A stretch of DNA of 64,000 bases, taken from assembly GCA_916610825.1 (NCBI GenBank), contig OU744448.1:18785936-18849935 (forward strand), written 5' to 3'. This stretch comes from Haliclystus octoradiatus. Its lineage: Eukaryota > Cnidaria > Staurozoa > Stauromedusae > Haliclystidae. A model generated the notes under the pieces. It saw only the letters and a list, made by a program, of their open reading frames with translations, was not told the origin of the DNA and did not search any database. Of this stretch, positions 9,401-12,400 are shown in pieces. The stretch's first letter is position 1, and each line of letters opens with the position of its first letter. A program made the translations under genes and the position numbers.

Positions 9401-12400
9401 TTATAAAATATATGTTATGTTTTCACGGATTTATAATTAGTTAGATAAAATTTATTTTCATGTCTACATTTGGAAATGAGTTCAGACTTTTTATTTAATA
9501 GATCTTCTTCTGCGCAAATGATATGGTACTTTTCAATTAGACATAAATGGCATTTTTTTGATTTGTTGCTGTATGCTTTCGCTTTAGCTAGGCAGGTCCA
9601 TTCAATTTTGTAGTTTTCTTTCCTATCTTTTAGTCCCCAAATGTATTTCGAAAGTTGTGTGCTGTTAATATATTTTCTGTGTTTGAATGACATCATATGC
9701 TGCGTGTATCTTTGTTTGAAGGTTCCCTCTGTCAAACCGATATAATTTTGACCTTCCTGATCTTCTGTGGTAGTAACTTTAATTGTTATAGATTTTGAGA
9801 GTAGATCTTTTGTAATTGATGGGTAAAAATTTTCAATATCGAAGGTGATAAATGAGTGCTTATGTTTGTTTGGTATAGATAAAAACCATTCACTCATTTA
9901 TTCAAAGCACTCATTTATCACCTTCGATATTGAACATTTTTACCTATCAATTACATAAGATCTACTCTCAAAATCTATAACTTTCGCCAAAGATTTCATC
10001 GGTATTCCAGAACAAGACATTAATATAATTATGCAAGCACGAAAATCTCTGTTATTTGATAACAATGGCACATGGGTAAAAAAAGATAACCAATCCCTTT
10101 TCGATGTTACCATTGGAAGTTACGATGGAGCAGAAGTGTGTGAACTCGTCGGATTATTCCTACTCAGCCAAGTTACCCAACAGCATGATCAAAATCATAT
10201 AGGCCTCTATCGTGATGACGGACTGGCCCTTCTCAAGAACTCAACTGGACCAAAAGCGGAAAGATTAAAAAAAAGAATATCGAAGGTATTTAAAGATAAT
10301 GGCCTAAAATTATCCATTCAAGCAAACCTAAAAGTTACACATTTTTTAGATGTTACACTCAATCTTACCAATGGTTCATATCAACCCTATAGAAAGCCCA
10401 ATGATGTACCGTCCTACATCAACGCCAATTCAAATCATCCCCCATCGATAATTAAACAACTACCAAAAGCAATTAATAAAAGAATCAGTGATTTATCATC
10501 TAGCAATGAAATTTTTAACAACGCTAAAACAACGTACGAAAATGCACTGAGGGAAAGTGGACATGATGCAGAGCTCGAATACAGCCATTGTGAAAATCCT
10601 ACACTCAACAAAGGAGAAATAGAAGAAGGCAAGTGATATGGTTCAAGTCACCATACGGTAAAAAGGTGCGCACTAACATCGGCAAAACTTTTCTACACCT
10701 AATTGAGAAACATTTCCCAGCGTCTCATAAATTTCATAAAATATTCAATAAGAACACCAGAAAAGTCAGCTACAGCTGTATGGACAACATGGGAAAAATT
10801 ATAAATAACCATCATAAAAAAATTATTAATGACCAACCCAAAAAGAATGAAAAAATGTGCAATTGTAGATCAAAGAATAAGTGTCCACTCAACAACAAAT
10901 GCCTAACGACAGACATGGTATACAACGCTAAAGTTTCTACAAGCAACAGCAGCCATAATTATATCGGTCTTACAGAAGGGACGTTCAAAACCCGCCTAGC
11001 CAACCACACCCAATCATTTAAGAACGAAATACACAGAAACAGCACTGAGCTATCAAAATTAATATGGAATCTCAAGGAAAGTAACGCAGAATTTAAAATT
11101 AATTGGTCTATATTAGCTACTGCTAGCGCATACACTAACATCTCAAATAAATGTAACCTATGCCTTACGGAGAAATTTCACATTATAACATCACGTTCGC
11201 CTAACCTACTCAACAAAAGATCAAAACTTATTTCCAAATGCCGGCATGAGAACAAATTTTACCTTAGAAATTTTAAATCCGGTAAATCGTAGACATTAAG
11301 AAATTTACAACAATATGCCTTTGTAAACAAACAATAAAAATATTAATTTATCAGTAACTCATTGTAGATAAACAATAGCTAGATATCGCACTCATGTATG
11401 TATGTTTAGGAGTAATCGTATGTTTTTAATTTTTTAGTACCACCATCTGAAGATCGCAATAAAAGCGTGAAACTCCGAGTTACGGAAAAGGCTTTGCCTC
11501 GTCTCTGTTTTATACTCTATATTATGCTCTGTCCAAAAAAACATTGAGCACTTTCATATACATGTGTGTATAAGAGTTCACACTCAATACAATTAATTTT
11601 TTTTAATTAATTATTATTATATATCTATATATATATATATATATATATATATATATATATAGTAGTACTGTCTAGTAGTACTGTATCTACTTCGGTAGTT
11701 TGAGCACTCTGGTATGGCACAGATGTTTTTTCATGTGATGAATTTTTTCACCACATTTATAACTCATCTTGACTTAGGTTATATACAGAAGTCAGTTCCT
11801 TGTTCGCTCACTGAGCAGTACTGATGAAGGCTAATGACCAGAAACATGTACTTGTCTGCTGCTATGTATGTCTCAATTGCGCATGCGCAATTTTGAGCAC
11901 TATCGACTTGGGATGTGTCTATACTATTTGCATTATGCATTGCCCACTACTTCGGTAGTTTGAGCACTCTGGTATGGCACAGATGTTTTTTCATGTGATG
12001 AATTTTTTCACCACATTTATAACTCATCTTGACTTAGGTTATATACTGAAGTCAGTTCCTTGTTCGCTCACTGAGCAGTACTGATGAAGGCTAATGGCCA
12101 GAAACATGTACTTGTCTGCTGCTATGTATGTCTCAATTGCGCATGCGCAATTTTGAGCACTATCGACTTGGGATGTGTCTATACTATTTGCATTATGCAT
12201 TGCCCACTACTTCGGTAGTTTGAGCACTCTGGTATGGCACAGATGTTTTTTCATGTGATGAATTTTTTCACCACATTTATAACTCATCTTGACTTAGGTT
12301 ATATACTGAAGTCAGTTCCTTGTTCGCTCACTGAGCAGTACTGATGAAGGCTAATGGCCAGAAACATGTACTTGTCTGCTGCTATATATATATATATATA

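Follow-up and report, generated by a model that had tools for sequence, protein, structure and literature searches.

Non-LTR retrozymes of Metazoa –those without long terminal repeats– are described in the accessible text of Cervera and de la Pena 2020 (PMC7229834) as tandem units of a few hundred base pairs with a G+C content below 50%, one type I hammerhead ribozyme each and no long open reading frame. They co-exist with Penelope-like elements carrying minimal hammerheads, which the same text names as strong candidates for their partner, as does a Cells 2020 review in its accessible part (PMC7761336). Here, we describe a retrozyme array in a stretch of 64,000 nucleotides (hereafter, the window) from the stauromedusan Haliclystus octoradiatus (assembly GCA_916610825.1, contig OU744448.1, positions 18,785,936 to 18,849,935, forward strand). 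We consider it probable that it is a non-LTR retrozyme mobilised in trans by Penelope-like elements, by target-primed copying that starts inside an RNA spanning the cleavage site of the ribozyme.

Two further systems are relevant. Poseidon, from Anolis carolinensis (Frangieh et al. 2024, PMC11167929, as far as its accessible text goes), resembles the Penelope-like elements found here in its GIY-YIG endonuclease and telomerase-like reverse transcriptase, its hammerhead, its tandem copies and its cutting of AT-rich DNA. In vitro, its protein starts reverse transcription internally at two nearby sites, which explains the optional genomic tails, and the hammerhead is dispensable. The Poseidon start lies in an AC-rich stem-loop inside the open reading frame and is unmatched to the cut DNA, whereas the start proposed here lies just 5' of a GAGCAC hairpin and has TA/TAT in common with the target; that text describes no non-autonomous rider. 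Plant LTR retrozymes are likewise hammerhead-bearing, non-autonomous and associated with circular RNA, but have type III hammerheads, LTRs, a Gypsy partner and 4-bp duplications (in part after the accessible text of PMC7761336).

The features of the array in the window are the following.
11687..12385, plus strand: retrozyme array, with a 5'-truncated unit of 170 nt, two full 260-nt units and 9 nt of the next unit.
11814..11863, plus strand: hammerhead of unit 1, with a mismatched stem II and a predicted cut after 11856; it fails the strict descriptor.
12074..12123, plus strand: type I hammerhead of unit 2, predicted to cut after 12116 (strict descriptor).
12334..12383, plus strand: type I hammerhead of unit 3, predicted to cut after 12376 (strict descriptor).
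11863..11871 and again 12123-12131, plus strand: UA-rich stretch UAUGUAUGU, unit positions 7-15, putative priming site.
11872..11900 and again 12132-12160, plus strand: bulged hairpin CTCA..TGAGCAC, directly 3' of the putative priming site.
11947..11967, also 11687-11707 and 12207-12227, plus strand: second GAGCAC stem-loop, with a UUCG loop and a weak lower stem.
12377..12402, plus strand: 3' junction, where TGCTGCTAT of the unit runs into (TA)n.
11618..11661, no strand assigned: (TA)n at the 3' end of Penelope-like element b, in which the array sits.

The 260-bp tandem array reported in the first-pass annotation was confirmed by Tandem Repeats Finder (11687-12389, period 260, 2.7 copies, 99% match). 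We defined the unit from cut site to cut site, and alignment to one unit placed the borders at 11687-11856 (5'-truncated), 11857-12116 and 12117-12376, plus 9 nt. Both its length (metazoan non-LTR retrozymes span about 150-450 bp) and its G+C content of 40.4% (below 50%) are those of this class. Other characters by which the class is recognised are expression as linear and circular RNA and, where target duplications occur, a duplication length above 4 bp. After the cut come TGCTGC, TATGTATGT and the hairpin CTCAATTGCGCATGCGCAATTTTGAGCAC, in that order; TTGAGCAC occurs twice per unit, which was seen in a fraction of 8.5e-5 of 200,000 shuffles. The array seems to be a non-autonomous non-LTR retrozyme, a known kind of element, and what seems new is the evidence for its Penelope-like partner.

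For the hammerhead, the 3' part of the unit reads GAGCAGUA-CUGAUGA-A-GGCUAAUGGCC-A-GAA-ACAUGUACUUGU-C^UGCUGC. The conserved core of a type I hammerhead (CUGANGA, GAA, a U-H cleavage site and three stems) is present. A strict type I descriptor matched seven times on both strands of the window, units 2 and 3 included, and never on 60 first-order Markov shuffles. CUGAUGA, GAA, the GUC triplet, the 7-bp stem I (with one G.U) and the 3-bp stem III were found as first annotated. As for stem II, first annotated as 'fully paired' in units 2 and 3, pairing held for four base pairs (GGCU/GGCC), which are closed by an A.A at 10.1/11.1 instead of a standard pair; several local Penelope-like hammerheads have U.U there. 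A standard pair at 10.1/11.1 is a feature of type I hammerheads. Similarly, a complete hammerhead in every unit proved true of units 2 and 3 and not of unit 1, which fails the descriptor because of its stem II (GACC), with one further mismatch.

Stem III is short and self-complementary: of the 12 positions of its strand, 10 could form pairs with a second copy, as could 8 of 9 in five local Penelope-like hammerheads. Together with the A.A that closes stem II, this would make cleavage as a dimer likely. Minimal type I hammerheads of Penelope-like elements were reportedly described by Cervera and de la Pena 2014 and Lunse et al. 2017. They, too, have a very short stem III and likely cleave as dimers (in part after the accessible text of PMC7761336), whereas in the motif of the unit stem I is longer and loop III counts 6 nt. 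Minimum free energy folding of the isolated 52-nt motif preferred another fold and did not give the hammerhead, so the assignment rests on core motif and pairing pattern, not on energy. The Rfam hammerhead families gave no match over the window at gathering score, over 11400-12700 at E<=5, or in the four loci tried at E<=1; RF00163 had no match genome-wide, in a search whose control matched nowhere either. Weak Rfam matches to microRNAs and snoRNAs were taken as chance or simple repeats.

At the genome level (262 Mb assembly, 33 contigs), the first-pass annotation expected other copies of the unit, and they are abundant. The exact 18-mer at the cleavage site has 513 copies and a 24-mer across the cut has 806 occurrences with up to two mismatches, against zero for the reverse of either; searching with the array DNA gave 66 matches from the 40 scored of 1098 candidates. 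The retrozyme is a dispersed multi-copy element rather than a local satellite. For the comparisons below we used 44 arrays, taken from the window and 40 fetched regions (one of which repeats the window).

The 3' ends of these arrays are fixed. The match to the unit stops at positions 5-9 in 42 arrays of the 44 (at position 9 in 37), i.e. TGCTGCTAT, and the flank continues in A/T sequence such as (TA)n, (TAA)n or (TTA)n; the remaining two stop at positions 42 and 66. Genome-wide, TGCTGCTA is followed by 10 A/T in 198 occurrences and continues into the next unit in 166; units that stop at the cut with 12 A/T after it number 0. The copied RNA extended at least 6 nt beyond the cut, and therefore the template was continuous across the cleavage site, being either circular or a multimer left uncut. 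We rejected as template a linear RNA with its end at the cut, and with it the self-cleaved 260-nt RNA suggested at first, as such, since the 3' junctions lie 6-9 nt beyond the cut. Regarding the target, UAUGUAUGU can pair throughout with ATATATATA if G·T is allowed, and just 2-3 bases match (TAA)n or (TTA)n. The array L032 has TATTATCTAC on both sides, likely a 10-bp target duplication read by eye; at other arrays such duplications are masked by the (TA)n targets.

The 5' ends are scattered across the unit, with four of the 44 arrays starting at position 1 –one of them, L041, follows another piece of the repeat– and four at position 7. Genome-wide, starts exactly at position 1 after 10 A/T were found at 11 places (most with 1 nt of doubt, as a T is shared with the flank) and at one place for control position 55; in four of the 11, a listed 3' end is found roughly one unit away. 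As these ends fall on the predicted cleavage nucleotide, we read them as ends made by the ribozyme, and their excess suggests that it has cut the template RNA in vivo. Position 7 is the base after the usual 3' junction, and inserts that start there are a whole number of units.

Units are also more alike within arrays than between them. Among 114 full units from 43 arrays (35 with two or more units), the mean difference was 7.68 between arrays and 2.77 within them, the latter value being reached in none of 2000 permutations. Identical units were present in 10 of the 35 arrays (seven in L010). Most differences within arrays are private, as would be expected from mutation after insertion. This within-array likeness speaks for a single monomer copied over and over, as a circle would be, although a uniform multimer or later homogenisation may also produce it. 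One array, L035 (G000:C7:11941900-11947900), is a higher-order repeat and departs from the uniform arrays: its twelve retrozyme units or pieces alternate in length between about 247 and about 260 and differ strongly from one another.

Penelope-like elements surround the array, as listed.
9959..11292, plus strand: coding part of element b, two overlapping frames (9959-10636 and 10594-11292), GIY-YIG and reverse transcriptase assigned through relatives.
11447..11481, plus strand: hammerhead core of element b, with a stem I mismatch in this copy.
11526..11549, plus strand: bulged GCTC..GAGC hairpin (followed by AC) in element b, with TATATTAT before it.
12561..12582, minus strand: bulged hairpin belonging to a Penelope-like fragment, whose hammerhead lies upstream.
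12626..12668, minus strand: minimal type I hammerhead of that fragment (strict descriptor).
13717..13737, minus strand: bulged hairpin of element c.
13773..13812, minus strand: minimal type I hammerhead of element c (strict descriptor).
13933..15209, minus strand: coding part of element c, with 14529-15209 on the reverse transcriptase side and 13933-14574 on the GIY-YIG side.
15372..15411, plus strand: minimal type I hammerhead of a Penelope-like fragment (strict descriptor), then (TA)n at 15437-15480.
9145..9245, minus strand: another fragment, with hammerhead 9206-9245 and bulged hairpin 9145-9166.

Fold comparison assigned both a GIY-YIG endonuclease domain and a telomerase-like reverse transcriptase to the Penelope-like proteins, the families being those that it listed. 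In Pfam they had no reverse transcriptase or GIY-YIG match, and a sequence search of PDB did not name them. Tandem or partial tandem copies with pseudo-LTRs were seen in two of 30 loci (L056 and L072), where the 3' end of one copy runs into the 5' hairpin and leader of the next. Like metazoan non-LTR retrozymes elsewhere, this one co-exists with Penelope-like elements that carry hammerheads.

The retrozyme and the Penelope-like elements have a common layout: a hammerhead, an AT-rich site and a bulged GAGCAC hairpin. In the sampled loci, 184 distinct hammerhead instances include 73 followed by a GCTC/GTCTCA..GAGC hairpin and 83 followed by a microsatellite. A script gave a parent to 73 of these 83 ends (34 retrozyme, 39 Penelope-like; 10 unassigned). 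Its retrozyme parent was odd (break at 13, offset 0), and the retrozyme 3' ends were taken from the array alignments instead. Among the 39 Penelope-like ends, 26 stop 0-6 nt before the hairpin, six at a second site beyond it and seven fit poorly (four of the seven resemble the first site, by eye, against another parent). When 30 Penelope-like loci were classified by regular expression, nine ended at the first site, 15 at the second (L056 and L072 among them; the labels of L073 and L075 are weak) and six elsewhere. These two end sites fit the two start sites of the Anolis protein.

The 35 distinct Penelope-like hairpins, from a search that required GCTC and GAGC, have a GCUC/GAGC stem and a 2-nt bulge (TT in 26, TC in seven, TA in two). 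The inner stem reaches at least 3 bp in 27 of them, with G-C, U-A or A-U at inner pair 2 and U-A, C-G or G-C at pair 3. In the window, the bulged-hairpin descriptor matched 20 times (shuffle mean 9.0, maximum 14); nine of these, counted by eye, are followed by AC (shuffle mean 0.3, maximum 3), eight of them with GAGC. The GAGCAC blocks first noticed as shared correspond to a hairpin with a 2-nt bulge in Penelope-like elements and a similar one in the unit. The proposed link to these elements gains support from this layout and from the matching insertion ends. In the flanks of retrozyme loci, Penelope-like protein was present at 14 of 39 and Penelope-like hammerheads at 23 of 40, compared with 0 and 2 of 14 same-window pieces; a shared preference for (TA)n would give the same association.

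From these observations, we propose the following mechanism. Transcripts of the repeat would be cut by their own hammerheads, and part of the RNA would remain or become continuous across the cleavage site, a ligated circle being the version we prefer. The Penelope-like protein, with reverse transcriptase and GIY-YIG, would recognise the GAGCAC hairpin and nick a TA-rich microsatellite, and the nicked strand would anneal to the UA-rich UAUGUAUGU, 7 nt past the cut and directly 5' of the bulged hairpin. Copying would then leave the hairpin behind, cross the cleavage site and continue, giving tandem units. The 3' end of the array would be fixed in this way, and its 5' end would be the point where the enzyme stopped, sometimes exactly the 5' end made by the hammerhead.

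A broader idea, which we put forward tentatively and regard as somewhat improbable as a whole, is that these Penelope-like elements use the bulged GAGCAC hairpin as their RNA initiation signal. The hairpin would position a TA-rich target, once nicked, on the AT-rich stretch immediately 5' of it, as in a telomerase-like enzyme with an internal template. The retrozyme would be a minimal parasite with only this signal and a hammerhead, riding as an RNA circle, and rolling circle copying would give its arrays and perhaps the tandem Penelope-like copies.

Other explanations share part of the evidence. The same partner and internal start could act on an uncut linear multimer transcribed from an existing array, instead of a circle. 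We see this as possible but rather improbable. It agrees with 5' ends at the cleaved nucleotide, if the multimer was cut just at its 5' end, and with the twelve matches, alternating unit lengths and large differences of L035; unprocessed RNA was, in the accessible text of PMC11167929, the main in vitro substrate in Anolis. However, identical units in 10 of 35 arrays and a lower difference within than between arrays need repeated copying of a monomer, unless the source arrays were equally uniform. Template jumping –where the enzyme, having copied the 5'-terminal 6 nt of one cut linear monomer, switches to the 3' end of a second– would give the same 3' junction and unit border, but is quite unlikely: jumps often add or lose bases, and only one sampled array (L045) has an indel at the position-1 border. 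Its units would also derive from different monomers, contrary to their likeness within arrays.

A partner of the long interspersed nuclear element (LINE) type instead of the Penelope-like ones is very unlikely. A 1064-aa open frame at 36009-39203 on the minus strand, read by eye as a LINE with endonuclease and reverse transcriptase, speaks for it, but the hammerhead, AT-rich site and GAGCAC hairpin layout and the matching junctions were found with Penelope-like elements, in a comparison that covered retrozyme and Penelope-like ends. Finally, a passive satellite, spread by unequal crossing-over and dispersal at the DNA level with the hammerhead as a relic, would explain a tandem array of high identity and a hammerhead that is not distinctly conserved. 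It is contradicted by the dispersal of hundreds of copies that share a fixed 3' end and vary in where they start, by the excess of 5' ends at the cut and by the 10-bp flanking repeat of L032 (by eye). We rejected it because of the fixed 3' ends and the dispersal, and consider it extremely improbable.

Several points weigh against mobilisation by Penelope-like elements from a cut-spanning, preferably circular template. The case is built on genome sequence, which shows the dispersal, the 3' and 5' ends, the within-array homogeneity and the layout shared with Penelope-like elements; transcription, RNA cleavage, circularity, recognition of the hairpin and mobilisation in trans are inferred. Conservation of the hammerhead is not distinctive (rank 72 of 265 windows of the unit) and was dropped as a sign of selection; the circular fold of the unit is not unusually stable (z -1.0). 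In the accessible text of PMC11167929, hammerhead mutants left insertion unchanged in the Anolis system. About 149 of the 513 copies are unclassified (513-166-198, with patterns that are not strictly nested), the excess of 5' ends was judged against a single control position, and the four position-7 starts are explicable by microhomology with (TA)n, without the ribozyme. Arrays were sampled by long matches, which favours long arrays, and L035, L032 and L022 are internally heterogeneous. The bulged-hairpin descriptor misses the retrozyme hairpin, whose lower stem is CUCA/UGAG and not GCUC/GAGC, shifted by one base, and the second GAGCAC stem-loop of the unit is weak; homology between the retrozyme and Penelope-like hairpins is likely, not proven. 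The flank control is small and local, with all pieces from one window.

Apart from these elements, frames of 492, 809 and 210 aa at 41391-45299 (plus strand) and 49312-49944 (minus strand) were read by eye as Gypsy-type gag-pol and integrase parts. Long near-perfect microsatellites lie at 6283-7038, 28530-28703 and 32048-32277 (TTATTA, ATA and ATCT; 98-100% match) and are possible targets for retrozymes and Penelope-like elements. A minimal hammerhead with a 3-bp stem II is present at 56199-56238 (minus strand), and its downstream hairpin looks decayed. The Penelope-like proteins at 13933-15209 and 9959-11292 have YRDDG at the reverse transcriptase active site and are abundant in public data (1621 and 1798 matches), the one named relative among the matches listed being from Hydra. 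In the genome, Penelope-like copies often form head-to-head pairs a few kilobases apart (G000:C5, C10, C1 and others).

With respect to metazoan non-LTR retrozymes already described, this locus differs in that the 3' junction, the target and the shared hairpin are defined here from the genome. The accessible text of PMC7229834 gives no fixed junction, the words microsatellite, junction and hairpin are absent from its main text, and our literature search among open-licence papers did not find the GAGCAC hairpin or retrozyme 3' junctions. For the enzyme that mobilises animal retrozymes and the RNA it copies, the accessible text of the 2020 papers (PMC7229834, PMC7761336) goes as far as naming Penelope-like elements 'strong' or 'likely candidates'. 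The genomic evidence for the partner and for a cut-spanning template is unusually direct here. One genome offers a testable answer at the level of junctions: a shared priming site and hairpin, a template that spans the cut and 5' ends that the ribozyme apparently made. A role is also suggested for the hammerheads that accompany Penelope-like elements, which the review, in its accessible part, terms a mystery (PMC7761336).
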